A stretch of DNA of 63,326 nt from Chitinispirillales bacterium (GTDB lineage Bacteria; Fibrobacterota; Chitinivibrionia; Chitinivibrionales; Chitinispirillaceae). The notes under the pieces were generated by a model, which saw nothing but the letters and a program-made list of their open reading frames with translations, had not been told where the DNA came from and made no database searches. Location: the NCBI GenBank assembly GCA_031254105.1, contig JAIRVB010000028.1, positions 1 through 63,326 of the forward strand, in the 5' to 3' direction. Of the stretch, positions 592 through 11,875 are shown in pieces. Each line of letters opens with the position of its first letter. Within the stretch, counting starts at the first letter, position 1. A program made the translations under genes and the position numbers.

Positions 592-2763
592 GTGAACAAA
601 ACAAAATTAACGTTAGTATCAGCGGTCGTTGTCGGCCTTCAGTTTTTTGCTTGTAAAGGCGGTAAAAGTGAAGTGGATTTTTCGTTTGTTCCCGTTAAGG
701 GTTCAAATGGCGAGTATCAGTATATTGATATAAGTCAAAAGGGAAAAATCGCAATCAATCCCCAATTTGAAGAGGCGGGTATATTCAGAGACGGTCTTGC
801 ACTTGTGAAGACTGGCGGTAAAGATGGAAAATGGGGTTACATAGACAAAACAGGCAAGTATGTTATTACCCCTGTTTACAAAGACGCACAGAATTTTAGT
901 AACGGTGTGACGTGGGTACAGATGGAAAACCAATCTCCTATGTTAATAGACAAAAGCGGCAAAACGCTCTTGCAAATAGACTCCTTAGTGTACGCCTATC
1001 CCTTTAGCGATGGTATATCATTAATAGGCGTTTATAGCGAAGGTCAGGAAATCAGTATGTTTATAGACAAAAAAGGAAAATCTGCTGTAACAACGGATCC
1101 GGGGGTTTATAATTATTTTATGCGAGAGGGGCTTTACGCTTTTCAAAACAAGGAGACCGAAAAATGGGGTTATAAAAACAAAAACGGTGAGACTGTTATA
1201 AGTGAGCAGTTTGATATTGCGTCTTATTTTGTTGACGGAATGGCTATTGTTGTAAGCGATGGTAAATGGGGCGTCATAAACAAAAAAGGCGAACTTGTAA
1301 TAAGCCCACAGTACGATATGTTAACGCCTGACGCCAACGGTTTACTTCTGGCGTTAGTTGACAAAAAATACGGTTGGATTAATAAAAAAGGCCAGACGGT
1401 TATAAATCCTCAATTTGACGCAGCTTCTCCGTTTGGGAGGAATAAATTAGCCGCGGTTCAAATGGGCAGCAAATTCGCTTATGTGAACGCAAAGGGACAA
1501 ATAGCTATTAATCCTCAGTTTGATATGGCTTTGCCGTTTTTCGGCGATTACGCTATGATTGTCAGTGGTGGAAAAGTCGGTTTTATAAACCAAAAGGGCG
1601 AATATGTCGTATTGCCTTTATACGATATAAAACCGAAAGGACTTTTTGAATATATTTTCGCAACAGGACAAAATATGTTTAATACGCATGACTATTACTT
1701 GGATAAATATATAAAGAATATAATGAAGAAAGTACTATCAGGACACGGGCGAGAGGCAATGGCGGCTTTGGACTATCAGCCAATCGTGGATTTTTATGAT
1801 TATGATAAGCTGAAGGAAAAGAAAAAAACATACGTGGAGCGCGTGAAGACGGAAAGAGTAGAAAAAATCAGGAACAATCTTCCTCAGTTTACAGATTCTA
1901 GAAACGGTCAAACGTACCGCACGGTAAAAATGGGCGGTAAGGTTTGGATGGCGGATAATTTGAATTACAAGACAGACAATAGTTGGTGTTACGACAACGA
2001 CGAGTCTAATTGCAATAAATACGGCAGGCTTTATGATTGGAATACCGCGATGGACGCTTGCCCGTCCGGTTGGCGCTTATCTACTCGCCGAGATTGGGAT
2101 AGTTTGATTGCGTCAAGCGGCGGTAATACAGCTGGTTCAATGCTTAAGTCAGTAATCGGTTGGGAGAATGACGGCAACGGTAGTGATGATTATGGGTTCT
2201 CGGCTATGCCTGTCGGCATTTTTGTGCAGGATGAAGGTTTCCACCATATCGGCAAGGTCGGCATTTGGTGGACGGCCTCAGAAAGCGGCAATGCCGTCTC
2301 GTTCTATCGGCGCATGCACACCGGCAATAAGTTTGTAGATGAGAACAGAGGCAATAAGAACTTCGGATTATCAGTACGTTGCGTTCAGGAGGAGGCAAAC
2401 ACTGATGTGGCCGCCAGCTGGCCGTCTGCCGCGCTGCTTGCCAAGTATGGCCTTAACGGTATGCAAATGCCCGGCTCTGCTATAGACGTTACTACTAACG
2501 AAGGTTCGGGGAGGCTACAGAACGTTATAAAATTTCGAAACGAATCTACGAGGAATACGGCTGCGGGTAATATCGGCAAATGGTTTACTGATAATAATTG
2601 GGAAGCGTTGGGTGATGCAATGTCATGTATTACCTACTCTAAAGGTGAGATGAAATCGTATTATTCCTCATTCAGTCAAGGTGGTGATCATTATATCATT
2701 TTGAACGCAGGCCGCGATGTTGATTGCTATGGGCGACCAAGATCACGCCGAACACTAAAATAA
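592..2763 (+). CDS. WG-repeat and FISUMP-domain lipoprotein
   Basis: The GTG start at 592 follows AAGGAGG. Residues 1-20 form a signal peptide ending FFA before Cys21, so this is a probable lipoprotein. Residues about 35-345 hold roughly eight WG/beta-repeat units of the type KWGYIDKTGKYVITP, each 35-45 residues. A charged helical linker (about 375-425) leads to a FISUMP domain (about 430-600), with the hallmarks GQTYRTVKMGGKVWMADNLN, YGRLYDWNTAM, CPSGWRLST and FGLSVRCVQE. A last segment of about 120 residues (WPSAALLAKYGLNGMQMPGS onward) is a separate domain I do not recognise. WG repeats and FISUMP are known as exported or surface modules without a defined activity. The gene may be monocistronic, since a GC-rich hairpin follows the stop codon. 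A surface-attached binding or scaffold role is inference only. Confidence 0.85.
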   Translation: MNKTKLTLVSAVVVGLQFFACKGGKSEVDFSFVPVKGSNGEYQYIDISQKGKIAINPQFEEAGIFRDGLALVKTGGKDGKWGYIDKTGKYVITPVYKDAQNFSNGVTWVQMENQSPMLIDKSGKTLLQIDSLVYAYPFSDGISLIGVYSEGQEISMFIDKKGKSAVTTDPGVYNYFMREGLYAFQNKETEKWGYKNKNGETVISEQFDIASYFVDGMAIVVSDGKWGVINKKGELVISPQYDMLTPDANGLLLALVDKKYGWINKKGQTVINPQFDAASPFGRNKLAAVQMGSKFAYVNAKGQIAINPQFDMALPFFGDYAMIVSGGKVGFINQKGEYVVLPLYDIKPKGLFEYIFATGQNMFNTHDYYLDKYIKNIMKKVLSGHGREAMAALDYQPIVDFYDYDKLKEKKKTYVERVKTERVEKIRNNLPQFTDSRNGQTYRTVKMGGKVWMADNLNYKTDNSWCYDNDESNCNKYGRLYDWNTAMDACPSGWRLSTRRDWDSLIASSGGNTAGSMLKSVIGWENDGNGSDDYGFSAMPVGIFVQDEGFHHIGKVGIWWTASESGNAVSFYRRMHTGNKFVDENRGNKNFGLSVRCVQEEANTDVAASWPSAALLAKYGLNGMQMPGSAIDVTTNEGSGRLQNVIKFRNESTRNTAAGNIGKWFTDNNWEALGDAMSCITYSKGEMKSYYSSFSQGGDHYIILNAGRDVDCYGRPRSRRTLK

Positions 2764-5674: not shown

Positions 5675-6790
5675 ATGATGAATATACTGATACTCAACTG
5701 GCGCGACATGGAGCATCCCGAAGCTGGAGGAGCTGAGGTCCATCTCATTGAATTGTTCAGCAGATTAGTAAACAAGGGATACTCAGTGACTCTTTTGACA
5801 ACCCGCTTCAAAGGCAGCCCCAAAAGTACTATCCAGCGCGGCATTGAGGTGCTCAGGTGGGGGCATACCTATACGTTTAACTGGGAAGCGCCTTTTTTAG
5901 TAAGGAAGCTTCTCAAGAAAAAACGTTACGACTGTATTATTGATGATGTCAATAAACTACCATTCTTCAGCCATCTGTGGTTTCCGTCAATGCGCTGCGG
6001 AGCGTTTTTTCACCATTTACTTGGGAAAACAGTTTTCGGGCTGACAAATCCGCCGATGGCGTTTTATGTTTATCTTATGGAAAGATTTTACCCCTGGGGA
6101 TATAAAGATGTTCCATGCTGTACAGTGTCTAAAAGCACTGCCGCCGAACTCATAGAGAAGGGATTTAAGGAACGCAGCATCTCAATCATCGAAAACAGTA
6201 TTGACACTAACCACTATCACCCAAACAATGCGGTAAAAAAAGAGGATGATCTGCTTCTATATGTCGGCAGACTTAAAAAATATAAACATGTCGATATTAT
6301 TTTTGAAGCCATGGCCGTAATGGATACTCATGGACGCAAAACCAGATTAGTAATTGCCGGAAGCGGAGATGACTTGGCGCGGCTTAAGGAGCGGTGTAAA
6401 GAATTGGAGCTTGAGGATAGAGTTGAGTTTGCCGGATTTATCAGTGAAGAGAAAAAAATTGAGTTTTACAGAAGAGCCTCAATTTTTATTAACACGTCCG
6501 AAAAAGAGGGTTGGGGGATCACCAATGTCGAAGCGGCCGCCTGCGGCACCGCCGTAGTAGCCAACAACGCCCCCGGGCTTCGCGATTCGGTGATTGACAA
6601 CCATACAGGTATACTTTACAAAGAAAACGATGTGCAGTCTCTTGCGTCATCAATAGAAAAACTTCTTGACGATAAGGAGCTTGCGAAAAAATTTGAGGAA
6701 CAGGGACGGATCTGGGCCCAAATGTTTTCCTGGGACGCAAGCGCTCAAAAGGTAGAAAACTGGATTCGGGAAATCGTGTGCGGAAAATAA
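5675..6790 (+). CDS. Glycosyltransferase family 4 (GT-B fold)
   Basis: 371 residues. An N-terminal acceptor domain has the Gly-rich loop HPEAGGAEVHL near residue 13. A C-terminal GT4 domain starts near residue 195 (LLLYVGRLKKYKHVD) and carries the EX7E nucleotide-sugar motif EGWGITNVE (E278, E286). GT4 enzymes are retaining transferases using NDP-sugars. The start is one of two adjacent ATGs (5675 or 5678). It overlaps the next gene by 13 nt and is first in a four-gene operon ending at 10412. The operon context (polytopic membrane protein plus polyprenol-phosphate type GT2) suggests a membrane-linked glycan. Donor and acceptor cannot be read from the sequence. Confidence 0.9.
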   Translation: MMNILILNWRDMEHPEAGGAEVHLIELFSRLVNKGYSVTLLTTRFKGSPKSTIQRGIEVLRWGHTYTFNWEAPFLVRKLLKKKRYDCIIDDVNKLPFFSHLWFPSMRCGAFFHHLLGKTVFGLTNPPMAFYVYLMERFYPWGYKDVPCCTVSKSTAAELIEKGFKERSISIIENSIDTNHYHPNNAVKKEDDLLLYVGRLKKYKHVDIIFEAMAVMDTHGRKTRLVIAGSGDDLARLKERCKELELEDRVEFAGFISEEKKIEFYRRASIFINTSEKEGWGITNVEAAACGTAVVANNAPGLRDSVIDNHTGILYKENDVQSLASSIEKLLDDKELAKKFEEQGRIWAQMFSWDASAQKVENWIREIVCGK

Positions 6791-7737
6791 TTTTTACTGT
6801 TCTAAAACTTCTGGCAACAATTTCAATCATCGCCTTTTTGATTTACAGGCTCGGATGGAGTGATATTGTTAATACAGTAAGCGGCGCGAGCTTTGAATGG
6901 CTTGCCGCGGGCATTCTGGTATTCTTAGTAAGCGGATGGCTTGGCGTCATACAGTGGCGGCTGCTTTTAGGTAACAGAGGCCTTAATATTCCTTTTGTCC
7001 GCGCGTTCAAGCTTTATTTTGTAGGATTGTTTTTTAACAATTTCATTTTTGGGGGCATCGTAGGCGATGCCGTAAAAGTCTCATCCATTCATTCGCAGGA
7101 TGGCAGGGGGCTTGCGGGATTTGCGGCAACCTTCCTTGACCGGTTCGCCGGACTATGGGCGATGTGCGGCTTTGCGATTGTCGGCAGCTTTGTTCTTCTT
7201 AATCAAGGTATGCTTACTCATGGCAATATCACCAATGCTTCGATAGCTCTTTTTGCGGCATTTATTCTTTTTGCGGGTATTATGCTTTTTCTAATATTTA
7301 AACCGTTGCAAAATCTATTTTTTTCTATTTCAGACAGATTACCCCTGACCCGCCGTTTCAAGCTGAAAGAAGTCGTTTCCGAAATGCTTATTGATGCGCG
7401 GGATTACAGGCTTTTGATGTCTGTATCGGGATTATCGGTCTTAATTCAGTTTTTGCGGATTGGCGTACATATTTTAACTGCGGCAGCTTTGGGCTTGTTG
7501 ACAGTTGCAAATTTTCAGTATTTTTTTATATTCGTACCAATTATCGCCATGCTCATGACCATACCGCTGCCTTTCGGGGTGCGCGAAACTGCCGGAGGAG
7601 CGTTGTTCGCCTTAGCCGGATTTCCGCGGGAAGCTGCGTTTGTCATGGGCTTTCTCGCTTCACTCATCGGCATCGCCGCAAGTCTGTTAGGAGGGGTTTT
7701 CTTTGTCACAGGAAAAGTCTACCGCACTGGAAAATAA
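6778..7737 (+). CDS. UPF0104 / lysylphosphatidylglycerol synthase-TM family membrane protein
   Basis: A 319-residue polytopic protein with about eight hydrophobic segments. The family core is GGIVGDAVKVSSIHS followed by FLDRFAGLW (residues about 98-130), where the DRFAGL segment is typical. The C-terminal family motif region includes IPLPFGVRETAGGALF. Members include the membrane half of MprF and AglD-like proteins. They are usually thought to move or present lipid-linked substrates, but most are unassigned. It starts with GTG inside the upstream GT4 and overlaps the following GT2 by 35 nt. A second family member in this window lies at 47022-48122. Confidence 0.88.
   Translation: MRKIIFTVLKLLATISIIAFLIYRLGWSDIVNTVSGASFEWLAAGILVFLVSGWLGVIQWRLLLGNRGLNIPFVRAFKLYFVGLFFNNFIFGGIVGDAVKVSSIHSQDGRGLAGFAATFLDRFAGLWAMCGFAIVGSFVLLNQGMLTHGNITNASIALFAAFILFAGIMLFLIFKPLQNLFFSISDRLPLTRRFKLKEVVSEMLIDARDYRLLMSVSGLSVLIQFLRIGVHILTAAALGLLTVANFQYFFIFVPIIAMLMTIPLPFGVRETAGGALFALAGFPREAAFVMGFLASLIGIAASLLGGVFFVTGKVYRTGK
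7689..7696 (+). promoter_or_regulatory. Shine-Dalgarno site fixing a TTG start
   Basis: AGGAGGGG lies 6 nt before TTG at 7703, inside the 3' end of the upstream gene. The alternative ATG at 7739 has no comparable site, so the GT2 gene most likely starts at the TTG and is translationally coupled. Confidence 0.65.
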
Positions 7738-8662
7738 AATGGACATTTCTATAGTAGTGCCGCTTTACAATGAAAAAGAGAGTCTCCCTTATCTCATGAA
7801 AGCGATCTCTGAAACTCTTGATCCATACGGAAAGAGTTACGAGGTGGTTTTTGTTGATGACGGCAGCAGCGATGGTTCATTTGACGAGCTGCGCGCCCTT
7901 CATAAAACTTATGGCCCTAAAATTAAGGCTATGCGCTTCAGCCGCAACAGCGGTAAATCCGCGGCGCTTAACGCGGGTATTTATCATGCCGCGGGTGATA
8001 TCATAATTACAATGGACGCTGATCTACAGGATGACCCAGCCGCTATTCCTGACATGATTACTAAATTAGAAGAGGGTTGGGATCTGGTGAGCGGATGGAA
8101 GAAAGTGCGTTATGACCCGATAGGCAAAACTTTGCCCTCAAAGGTCTGGAACGCTCTTACCTCATTTTTCTCCGGACTCAAGCTTCACGACTTTAATTGC
8201 GGTTTTAAAGCCTACCGCCGCGACGCCGCGAAGAGTCTTGACATATACGGCGAACGCCACCGCTATCTGCCCGTTCTTGCGCATTGGGATGGTTACAGTG
8301 TAACCGAGGTTGCGGTGCCTCACCACCCGCGCCAGTTCGGTAAATCAAAGTTTGGCGCAGGCCGCATGTTCAACGGCGCAATGGATATGATCACCCTGCT
8401 GTTTTTAAAGCATTACCTGAAAAGCCCGCTGCACTTTTTCGGCTTAGTCGGGCTTATTCTTATTTTAGTTGGTGTGGGTGTGCTTGGATATTTCGGAGTT
8501 GTGTGGGCAATGACAGGATTAATGAGAATCAGGCCGCTTACCATTCTTGCCCTTGGGTCTATGATTATGGGGATACAGTTTATATCGATAGGGTTAATAG
8601 GGGAGATGATAACTCACTCTCAGCAAACCCGTAAACAATTCTCAATCAGAGAAAAACTATAG
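7703..8662 (+). CDS. GT2 glycosyltransferase, DPM1/GtrB-like, with C-terminal TM helices
   Basis: GT-A domain at residues about 13-230, with IVVPLYNEKESL, VFVDDGSSDGS, the metal-binding DMDADLQDDP and the family motif FNCGFKAYRR. Two C-terminal TM helices follow (about 248-270 and 282-305). This architecture matches polyprenyl-phosphate glycosyltransferases (GtrB/ArnC/DPM1 group), which charge undecaprenyl phosphate with a sugar on the cytoplasmic face. A TTG start is favoured by the Shine-Dalgarno at 7689; if ATG 7739 is used, the protein begins 12 residues later, just before the first strand. It is third gene of the operon and supports a lipid-linked sugar pathway. Confidence 0.9.
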   Translation: MSQEKSTALENKMDISIVVPLYNEKESLPYLMKAISETLDPYGKSYEVVFVDDGSSDGSFDELRALHKTYGPKIKAMRFSRNSGKSAALNAGIYHAAGDIIITMDADLQDDPAAIPDMITKLEEGWDLVSGWKKVRYDPIGKTLPSKVWNALTSFFSGLKLHDFNCGFKAYRRDAAKSLDIYGERHRYLPVLAHWDGYSVTEVAVPHHPRQFGKSKFGAGRMFNGAMDMITLLFLKHYLKSPLHFFGLVGLILILVGVGVLGYFGVVWAMTGLMRIRPLTILALGSMIMGIQFISIGLIGEMITHSQQTRKQFSIREKL

Positions 8663-8675
8663 TAAACTGAAAACT

Positions 8676-10412
8676 TTGCCGAAAGTGGTGACAAAGGTGA
8701 GCCTCGGACATCTCCCGATAAAAGTCTGCATTGTAGGATCGGTTTACCCGCGTTTCGATAAGGACACGGAAGTCCCATGGCTAAGAGAAACTGTAAAGCG
8801 CTGCCGGGATAACGGATGTGAAATAGAGGTGTTTGCGCCTTCGTGGCGAGGGCTCAAGTCTCATTATATTGATAATGTAAAGGTTCACCGATTTCGTTAT
8901 GCTCCCGCGTTTCTTGAAGATTTAACCGGTGAAGGCGGCGCGCCGGGTAAAATTCATAAATTGCGTTACAAGCTCCTCACCGTTTCATATATCATTTGCG
9001 GTACGCTGCATTTACTTTACCTTCATGGACAAAAGCGTTACGATATACTGCATATACACTGGCCGTTTCCTCACGGAGTATTTTCCACGGCAGCGCAAGT
9101 TTTTTTTGGAGGTAAAGTAGTACTCAATTTCCACGGAGCGGAGCTGCTTCTCAGCAATAAATATGGATTTGTAAAACGCGCGCTCGCGTTTTTTATAAAA
9201 CGCGCTGACCGAATTATCACAAACTCCTCTTTCACAGCATCCAAAGCGCGCGCTGTTTTCCCAAAGGAGTGTGCGGTCATCCCGTATGGTACTACATTTG
9301 AGCCGATTGAAAATTGTCCCGAAAAAACCCGGCCGCTCGTATTAAGCGTTGGACGGCTTATTGAACGTAAAGGTTTTTCATATTTGATCGAATCGGCAAA
9401 ACAGGTAGTAGAGAAAATACCTGATGCGCGGTTTGTTATTGTTGGAGGAGGCCCTCTGCTTGATTCACTGAGAGAACAGATTCGGGCTTTGGGTCTGGAA
9501 GAATATGTATCCCTGCCTGGTAAAGTAACTCAGGATGAACTGATAAACTTTTACCGGCAGGCGTCTTTGTTTGCGTTGCCGGCCATAAAGGATGACAATG
9601 GTGATACGGAAGGGTTAGGCGTGGTACTCATCGAGGCTCTCAGCTGCGCGATACCTGTAGTTGCAAGTGATGTCGGCGGCATATCGGATATAATCAAAGA
9701 TGGACGCACCGGACTCTTGTTTCCGCAAAAAAACAGTGCGGCTATATCAGATTCAATTATTCGCGTACTACGGGATGATGATCTTAGAAACACCCTTGCT
9801 TCTCAAGGCAATGAGTATGTTCTCACGCAATTTAGTTGGGAATCGGTGATTGAGAAAATAATGACATTGTATAAGAGCGTGATTAACGAAGAAAATGTTA
9901 ATTTTTCCCGCCTTCGCTCAGTCAAAGATATAAACTGGGAAACATGGAAATTTACGGAACAGGCGGTACTTTGTTTTGTACGTAAAGGGAACAAAATCCT
10001 GCTAATTCATAAAAAAACCGGTTTGGGCAAAGGCAAGATAAACGCTCCAGGCGGCAGGATTGAAAAGGATGAAACGCCTTTTGCCGCCGCAATAAGAGAA
10101 ACAAAGGAAGAGACTCACGTAACGCCGTCATTACTTGAATTTGCCGGTGAACTACAGTTCATATTTAAGGATGGTTATTCTCTGAGAGGACACGTGTTTT
10201 TCGCGTCCGGCTGTGAAGGCTCTCCGGTATCGACACCGGAGGCGGATCCGTTCTGGTGCGCGGTTGACGCTATCCCCTACGACAAGATGTGGGCTGACGA
10301 TATACACTGGCTGCCGAGAGTTCTTGCGGGAGAAAAAATTCTGGGCCGCTTTATTTTTGATAAAGATAAGATGGTTGACCTTGAAGTACAAAAAATTAAT
10401 GTGTTGAGTTGA
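8676..10412 (+). CDS. Glycosyltransferase family 4 fused to an MTH1-like Nudix hydrolase
   Basis: One uninterrupted frame of 578 codons. Residues about 14-400 are a GT4 transferase (VCIVGSVYPRF; FHGAELL; LSVGRLIERKGFSYLIES; EX7E as EGLGVVLIE, E312-E320). Residues about 428-575 are a Nudix domain. Its box runs G460-V482 (GGRIEKDETPFA then AIRETKEETHV), with the usual Gly near the end replaced by His. The downstream segment (PYDKMWADDIHWLPRVLAGE, GRFIFD) resembles the substrate-binding end of MTH1/NUDT1 8-oxo-dGTP diphosphatases. Both domains look complete. The TTG start has no clear ribosome site; GTG at 8685 or 8697 is possible. It is last in the glycan operon. I know of no standard pathway needing this fusion; nucleotide-sugar or nucleotide hydrolysis coupled to transfer is speculation. 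Confidence 0.88.
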   Translation: MPKVVTKVSLGHLPIKVCIVGSVYPRFDKDTEVPWLRETVKRCRDNGCEIEVFAPSWRGLKSHYIDNVKVHRFRYAPAFLEDLTGEGGAPGKIHKLRYKLLTVSYIICGTLHLLYLHGQKRYDILHIHWPFPHGVFSTAAQVFFGGKVVLNFHGAELLLSNKYGFVKRALAFFIKRADRIITNSSFTASKARAVFPKECAVIPYGTTFEPIENCPEKTRPLVLSVGRLIERKGFSYLIESAKQVVEKIPDARFVIVGGGPLLDSLREQIRALGLEEYVSLPGKVTQDELINFYRQASLFALPAIKDDNGDTEGLGVVLIEALSCAIPVVASDVGGISDIIKDGRTGLLFPQKNSAAISDSIIRVLRDDDLRNTLASQGNEYVLTQFSWESVIEKIMTLYKSVINEENVNFSRLRSVKDINWETWKFTEQAVLCFVRKGNKILLIHKKTGLGKGKINAPGGRIEKDETPFAAAIRETKEETHVTPSLLEFAGELQFIFKDGYSLRGHVFFASGCEGSPVSTPEADPFWCAVDAIPYDKMWADDIHWLPRVLAGEKILGRFIFDKDKMVDLEVQKINVLS

Positions 10413-10433: not shown

Positions 10434-10721
10434 CTATTTTTTGATCTTAATTTTATGCGCCGTAATTATAGTGTAGCTGTGGGCGTTGATTGTTATCACA
10501 CAATCACCTGAACTCACATACCAATTTTTCCCTTTTCTGATAATACCATTCGCCCTGCTGACAGTCTGTTTACACCAAGCCGCAACATCATCGGTTTGCA
10601 GTTCAAGATTTCGTTTTATCCGTTCAACACCCATTTTTGTTGTATGGATTTTTTCGATATTATCTATTAAGCCGCTGCCGCTTTTTGCCCTCTTGAAATC
10701 AGTCTTTGCGAATTTCAGCAA
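10434..10721 (-). CDS. DUF3781 family protein
   Basis: About 95 residues. The family core is recognisable: LIDNIEKIHTTKMGVERIKR, then LQTDDVAAWCK, then RKGKNWYV and INAHSYTIITAHKIK. No function is known for DUF3781. The frame is open back to an ATG at 10772 inside the DAHP synthase gene. A TTG at 10721, overlapping that gene's TGA (TTGCTGA), is the more economical start and would couple the two genes. The tail is Lys-rich. The plus-strand frame across the same region (10486-10782) is an antisense shadow. Confidence 0.75.
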   Translation of the reverse strand: MLKFAKTDFKRAKSGSGLIDNIEKIHTTKMGVERIKRNLELQTDDVAAWCKQTVSRANGIIRKGKNWYVSSGDCVITINAHSYTIITAHKIKIKK

Positions 10722-11743
10722 TTTTCCGCTATCTCGTAAAGAAGCTTCTCCGAATCCTCCCACCCTAAACATGGATCGGTGATTGATTTCCCGTATACAT
10801 CCTCATCCGCTTTTTGCGCGCCCTCTTTGAGGTAGCTTTCGATCATAAGGCCGCGTATCAAATTTTTCAGCGCCGGATCATATTGACGGCTGCGCATAAC
10901 CTCTTTGGCTATTCGCGGTTGTTCCCCAAAACGCTTTCCCGAATTATCATGATTCGTATCAACAAATATCGTAGGGTTCTTCATACTGCGCTGAGTATAG
11001 ACAGCGCTTGCGTCGATCAGATTTTCGTGGTGATAATTTGGACGCGGTCTTCCTGTGCTGCTTACCCATCCCCGCAGGATCAAGTGAGCGTACGGGTTCC
11101 CCGAAGTAGTTACTTCCCAGCCGTTATAAGAGAACGTGTGCGGTATCTGCGCCGCCAAAACCGAATTTAAAGCGACATTTATATCGCCGCTGGTAGGGTT
11201 CTTCATTCCTACCGGAATGTCAAGCCCGCTTGCCGTAAGACGGTGCTGCTGGTTTTCCACAGACCTTGCGCCTATCGCAACATAGCAAATCAGATCATCC
11301 AGATAAGGGTGGTTGTTCGGATAAAGCATCTCATCGGCTGCGCTGAGCTCAGACTGGGAGAAAGAGCGTACATGCATTTTGCGGATAGCAATAATTCCTT
11401 CTGCGATGTTAGGTTCTTTGAGATGATCGGGCTGATGCGCCATACCTTTATAACCCTGGCCGGTAGTTCTTGGCTTATTTGTATAGATTCTGGGAATAAT
11501 GATGAGCTTATCCTTTACCTTTTCCTGTATTGCGGCAAGCCGTGAGACATATTCGCATACAGCTTCTTCATCATGAGCTGAGCATGGCCCGATAACCACG
11601 ATAAACCGGTTGTCCTTTTTCTCAAAAACCGCTTTGATCTCTTCGTCACGCCTGATTTTTTTCTCGCAGAGTTCTTTGGGAAATGGAACGTTTTCCTTGA
11701 TCTCCTCCGGAGTGGGAAGTTGTCTGATCTTTTTGAAACTCAT
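10715..11743 (-). CDS. aroF: Class I 3-deoxy-7-phosphoheptulonate (DAHP) synthase
   Basis: First step of the shikimate pathway: phosphoenolpyruvate + erythrose 4-phosphate to DAHP. Class I (AroF/G/H) motifs are seen: VVIGPCSAHD, RIYTNKPRTTGQGYKG, AIGARSVENQQHR, PVGMKNPTSGD, HLILRG, then IFVDTNHDNSGK and SITDPCLGWED at the C-terminus. The start at 11743 (MSFKKIRQLPTPEEIKENVP) gives 342 residues, the family's normal size. An upstream frame extension to 11836 adds 31 residues without family character. Which of the three feedback types (Phe, Tyr, Trp) it belongs to cannot be told. It is followed in overlap by the DUF3781 gene and converges on the glycan operon. Confidence 0.95.
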   Translation of the reverse strand: MSFKKIRQLPTPEEIKENVPFPKELCEKKIRRDEEIKAVFEKKDNRFIVVIGPCSAHDEEAVCEYVSRLAAIQEKVKDKLIIIPRIYTNKPRTTGQGYKGMAHQPDHLKEPNIAEGIIAIRKMHVRSFSQSELSAADEMLYPNNHPYLDDLICYVAIGARSVENQQHRLTASGLDIPVGMKNPTSGDINVALNSVLAAQIPHTFSYNGWEVTTSGNPYAHLILRGWVSSTGRPRPNYHHENLIDASAVYTQRSMKNPTIFVDTNHDNSGKRFGEQPRIAKEVMRSRQYDPALKNLIRGLMIESYLKEGAQKADEDVYGKSITDPCLGWEDSEKLLYEIAENC

Positions 11744-11875
11744 AGCCGTGAAACTTTCTATAACTTTTGATGGAAATTTTTTAACATACAAAAATGTAGT
11801 TATTCTATTTGAAAATTTACGGTTGTGTGGCGGCATATCTTAGCGGGAGGACGTCAACAACATACGCTTTCGCAC

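Follow-up and report, generated by a model that had tools for sequence, protein, structure and literature searches.

An in-frame fusion of a GT4 glycosyltransferase and an MTH1-type Nudix domain found in a single Fibrobacterota genome

Introduction

In a Chitinispirillales genome, a glycosyltransferase gene at the end of a run of glycan synthesis genes continues without a stop codon into a Nudix hydrolase domain. This raises two questions: whether such a two-headed protein is real, and whether its Nudix half serves glycan synthesis or keeps an activity of its own. A preliminary description of the locus had proposed the fusion and guessed at roles for it in sugar chemistry. Here, we analyzed the window (the whole stretch of 63,326 nucleotides, contig C46 of the source genome) and compared its fused protein with relatives in a phylum sample of 168 genomes, source genome included, and in other bacterial phyla.

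Results and Discussion

The fused reading frame and its gene run

The ORF at positions 8676 to 10412 is real and unbroken: a single stop-free frame of 578 aa contains both Pfam domains, so the in-frame GT4-Nudix protein is genuine. It is the last of four genes, in the order GT4, PF03706 flippase-like protein, GT2 and fusion, whose neighbors overlap or lie 13 bases apart. The proposed placement at the end of a lipid-linked glycan run, downstream of GT4, flippase-like and GT2 genes, therefore holds. The features are as follows.

5675 to 6790, plus strand: GT4 glycosyltransferase, first of the gene run (ORF list, Pfam)
6778 to 7737, plus strand: flippase-like membrane protein, PF03706 / LPG_synthase_TM (Pfam, synteny)
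7703 to 8662, plus strand: GT2, ArnC/PgfS-like polyprenyl-phosphate sugar transferase (similarity, below family cut-offs; synteny)
8676 to 10412, plus strand: whole fused ORF, 578 aa; TTG is the first in-frame start, putative
8676 to 9890, plus strand: GT4 glycosyltransferase half, aa 1-405 (Pfam PF00534, 2.5e-44; orthologs end at about aa 402-405)
9609 to 9635, plus strand: EX7E motif of the GT4 half, E312...E320
9891 to 9911, plus strand: junction of about 7 codons, coding frame stop-free
9912 to 10409, plus strand: MTH1-type Nudix half, aa 413-578, including the N-terminal xxVxDxxWExW segment of the stand-alone family
10053 to 10121, plus strand: Nudix box G460-V482, with catalytic E475, E478 and E479 and the final Gly replaced by His481
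10287 to 10310, plus strand: MWADDIHW, equivalents of MTH1 W117, D119, D120 and W123

GT4 orthologs align with the fused ORF only from about aa 15, which makes its true start uncertain. The GT4 half is complete, as had been claimed: it contains PF13439 and PF00534, the two halves of the GT-B fold (aa 37-379; Glycos_transf_1, 2.5e-44), with an intact EX7E motif, and retains 87 of the 95 positions invariant among eight stand-alone orthologs. The closest stand-alone orthologs, three of them syntenic, are 44-51% identical to this half and share both GT-B halves and the motif; unlike them, the fused protein carries a C-terminal Nudix extension, a complete domain (aa ~413-578) attached almost without a linker.

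Two other ORFs of the window may be mentioned. Directly 3' of the fusion, on the minus strand (10434 to 10772), lies a 112-aa ORF that overlaps the end of a DAHP synthase ORF (10715 to 11836) and presumably resembles DUF3781 proteins. Further upstream, the ORF at 592 to 2763 (plus strand) contains, by eye, WG-type repeats and, after them, a paralogous domain that resembles Fibrobacter 'FISUMP'.

The Nudix half is of the MTH1 type by sequence and predicted fold

Pfam detects the NUDIX domain at aa 429-548 (8.7e-17). It had been described as MTH1-like rather than related to ADP-sugar Nudix enzymes, and our comparisons support this assignment. In a phmmer search of the PDB, the best matches were MTH1 from zebrafish (4.1e-24) and human (3e-22), then mouse and dog; the next match, E. 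coli MutT, reached only 1.3e-6. An AlphaFold2 model of the Nudix half (pLDDT 93.4) retrieved MTH1 as all 50 matches listed by Foldseek, with a TM-score of about 0.92 normalized to the MTH1 target and an rmsd mostly of 1.1-1.8. By both sequence and predicted fold, the nearest proteins are thus MTH1 and not MutT or another Nudix enzyme.

MTH1 (NUDT1; PDB 5otn, 5ghi, 6qvo) is an oxidized purine nucleoside triphosphatase, and its human-type sequence is identical to the Nudix half at 50 of 144 residues. In the phmmer alignment these include K23, N33, G36, G37, E52, E55, E56, F72, F74, E100, W117, D119, D120 and W123 of MTH1, so that all listed catalytic and base-pocket residues are shared. The pocket residues N33, F72, F74, W117, D119 and D120 correspond to N456, F495, F497, W539, D541 and D542; substitutions are found at F27 (L450) and K38 (R461). 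The Nudix half differs from MTH1 in being bacterial, in its C-terminal position on a glycosyltransferase and in an extra N-terminal WxxW segment.

The Nudix box reads G460-x5-E466-x7-R474-E475-T-K-E478-E479-T-H481-V482. Compared with the PF00293 box GX5EX7REUXEEXGU, all Glu and the Arg are kept, T476 occupies the U position and H481 takes the place of the final G. Loss of metal-binding residues had been raised as a possibility for this family, as had a comparison of the pocket with that of MTH1: both the metal-binding Glu and the base-reading residues are retained. Across 150 bacterial homologs, no variation occurs at F72, F74, E52, E55, E56, E100, W117, D119, D120 or W123, and 147 of the homologs have N33. 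The final position of the box is more variable (G in 101, C in 18, H in 11, R in 8). The His noted there in the preliminary description is therefore present but is no anomaly, and these family counts rule it out as a sign of lost function.

The fusion appears to be private to the source genome

The fusion is absent from the 167 other genomes of the phylum sample. The Nudix domain occurs in 15 of them at 52-66% identity, every copy unfused and about 165-200 aa long (one has a longer upstream frame, probably spurious); named relatives nearest to it include Chitinispirillum, Chitinispirillaceae and Fibrobacteria MAGs. The GT4 orthologs are free-standing in nine genomes and, where their ends lie on the contig, stop at about aa 402-405 of the fused ORF. 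Separate genes for the two domains in relatives, named beforehand as one part of a case against the fusion, are what every relative examined shows; one genome (G019) carries both, on separate contigs. Conservation of operon order was found in part: the order flippase, GT2, GT4 is kept in two genomes (G035, G036) and GT2, GT4 in a third (G034), and the gene that follows is unrelated in all three, with no Nudix domain joined there. The one same-genus genome (88% complete) yielded neither the GT4 ortholog nor the Nudix domain at the thresholds used. We also sought in the source genome the FKBP-like neighbor of the relatives' Nudix gene, as a mark of the ancestral site, and obtained no match.

The fusion was likewise absent from the sampled Myxococcota (72 genomes), Spirochaetota (65) and Verrucomicrobiota (110). 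A GT4-Nudix protein requires a frame of at least about 540 aa; only six frames among the matches in these phyla reach this length. All six belong to Myxococcota, and reading each of them revealed no GT4 domain. Large frames in GC-rich Myxococcota (up to 951 aa) were considered as candidate GT4 fusions and proved to be mostly spurious upstream extensions. None of the 80 Nudix loci that we read on genome contigs is fused to a GT4, and no second GT4 fusion of this Nudix family was found among about 1,300 genomes. Stand-alone MTH1-type Nudix genes of Fibrobacterota, Spirochaetota, Verrucomicrobiota and Myxococcota are about 48-66% identical to the fused domain and share its conserved columns; in our sample they stand as genes of their own or with other partners, never with a GT4. 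The fusion is thus known from one genome and a single species, and from the genomes compared it appears private to that source. Our literature search, which mostly did not extend to subscription journals, found no paper on a glycosyltransferase-Nudix fusion, in agreement with the earlier statement that the pair has no described precedent. Relative to the literature searched, GT4-Nudix is a new domain architecture made of two halves of already known kinds.

Other fusion partners of this Nudix family

Elsewhere, this MTH1-type Nudix family is joined to at least five unrelated partners. In about 20 Spirochaetota frames that we read (L063, L060, L062, L165, L186 and others), the Nudix domain follows two to three transmembrane helices and a zinc ribbon with two CxxC motifs. 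It is combined with a class I methyltransferase in L064:2293-3480 and L108:2179-3492 (Myxococcales), with an aminoacyl-tRNA editing domain at the C-terminus in L204:1833-2960, L207:1908-2984 and L208:1503-2621 (Myxococcota; PF04073, E 1e-25 to 2e-29), with a C-terminal GDSL hydrolase in L131:2989-4080 and L193 (Spirochaetia) and in L194 and L195, and with DUF429 in L189 by Pfam and in L190-192 by resemblance. DUF429-NUDIX fusions of Spirochaetes have already been reported (PMC3985635). Like the GT4-Nudix protein, they have an N-terminal partner on an MTH1-type Nudix domain; they differ in that this partner is RNase H-like, that they occur in several species and that they include no glycosyltransferase. 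Since these partners share no pathway, being fused to a glycosyltransferase carries less weight as an argument for a role in glycan synthesis.

The N-terminus of the Spirochaetota membrane/zinc-ribbon proteins has no Pfam family, and these are candidate membrane-anchored nucleotide sanitizers. The Nudix-PF04073 proteins would combine two quality-control enzymes on one chain.

A second, unfused copy has lost the base pocket

The source genome encodes a second, unfused Nudix protein of the same family on contig C11 (G000:C11:805-1371; L031, L160), next to genes that by inspection resemble archease, shikimate kinase and chorismate synthase. Our tree groups this copy and the fused domain as sisters (SH-aLRT 95); its branch measures 0.88, that of the fused copy 0.21. 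Relative-rate counts against 13 outgroups gave 2-9 unique changes for the fused copy and 21-33 for the paralog, about 3-14 times more (p 8e-3 to 2e-6). Of 42 conserved columns, each kept in at least 90% of homologs, the fused domain keeps all 42 and the paralog 36. The paralog's losses are, in MTH1 numbering of the alignment, F72Y, F74S, D119R and D120Y, plus two neighbors; its Nudix box and all metal-binding Glu are intact. Because base-pocket residues were lost while the metal-binding Glu stayed, the paralog has probably changed substrate, and by this alignment only the fused sister has an intact MTH1 pocket. The genome also encodes a MutT/NudG-like Nudix enzyme (L005), so that the fusion need not be its only defense against 8-oxo-dGTP.

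How the fusion may be read

An assembly or sequencing error that merged adjacent GT4 and Nudix genes, through a missed stop or a gained or lost base, would explain why no relative has the fusion and why the junction, almost free of linker, sits precisely where one complete gene ends and the next begins. We nevertheless judge it unlikely: the error would have to fall within about 10-20 codons, a chance below 1e-3 (the usual assembly error rate is about 1e-5 per base), the genome (3.68 Mb, 56 contigs) is 100% complete and 1.5% contaminated, and both halves have the same GC content of 0.458. It is just as improbable that the ORF is real and the Nudix protein is made mainly on its own, leaving the fusion physiologically minor. 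An in-frame ATG at 9861 and a GTG at 9879, just 5' of the Nudix half, would yield proteins of 183 and 177 aa, near the size of stand-alone orthologs; however, neither is preceded by a good Shine-Dalgarno sequence, and with no stop between the halves any translation of the operon must yield the long product as well. The presence of the C11 paralog and the MutT/NudG-like enzyme could suggest that the Nudix half is a decaying, inactive passenger, but conserved residues are being lost from the unfused copy, while the fused one keeps every conserved column on a short branch, and we regard decay as very unlikely.

Two guesses at a role in glycan synthesis, that the Nudix half clears away the NDP released by the glycosyltransferase or that it breaks down an incorrect or damaged nucleotide-sugar donor, draw on the place of this half in the same polypeptide and operon as GT4, GT2 and flippase genes, and on the existence of Nudix enzymes that act on NDP-sugars, such as the E. 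coli GDP-sugar hydrolases NudD and Gmm (PMC5389931). Those enzymes have an altered box, GX5EX7RLX2AEXGU (PMC5389931), whereas the fused protein reads RETKEE at this place, with REtxEE intact instead of RLxxAE. Its purine-reading MTH1 pocket is fully conserved, free-standing orthologs have unrelated neighbors in the loci read (one is an FKBP-like protein gene), and the other fusion partners of the family are unrelated to glycans. We therefore disfavor both guesses and consider such a role doubtful. As the operon is shared, a functional link with glycan synthesis could also take another form: the MTH1-type domain, tethered to the membrane-side GT4, might protect or regulate the pathway by clearing purine nucleotides that are damaged or modified, such as modified GTP on its way into the pool of GDP-sugar donors. 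The family's repeated fusions to other partners might then be similar 'local sanitizers'. This too we hold to be rather improbable.

We favor as the probable explanation a species-private fusion that places two independently working enzymes, a GT4 and a housekeeping nucleotide sanitizer, on one chain. An MTH1-type Nudix gene would have come to sit directly behind the GT4, the last gene of a flippase-GT2-GT4 operon, and the two reading frames would then have been joined end to end into a two-headed protein. The GT4 half would transfer sugar in lipid-linked glycan synthesis, and the Nudix half would convert damaged purine NTPs (8-oxo-dGTP, 2-OH-dATP, possibly methylated dGTP or dATP) to monophosphate and pyrophosphate. 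The latter probably does the usual nucleotide-cleaning job of its family and not new sugar chemistry; the fusion may provide only co-expression and tethering or a shared location, with no shared reaction.

Implications

As this Nudix family has been joined repeatedly to unrelated proteins, a Nudix fusion alone is a poor guide to the pathway of its partner. The intact pocket of the fused copy and the lost pocket of the free copy, in one genome, offer a clean natural case for the role of the pocket residues. Several bacterial phyla commonly encode proteins whose MTH1 pocket is complete. A 2018 study in which E. coli MutT was the only bacterial enzyme tested placed the origin of O6-methyl-dGTP activity after the separation of the domains of life (PMC6237811). 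The bacterial MTH1-type proteins make this inference testable, and their frequency runs against a conclusion drawn from E. coli MutT alone.
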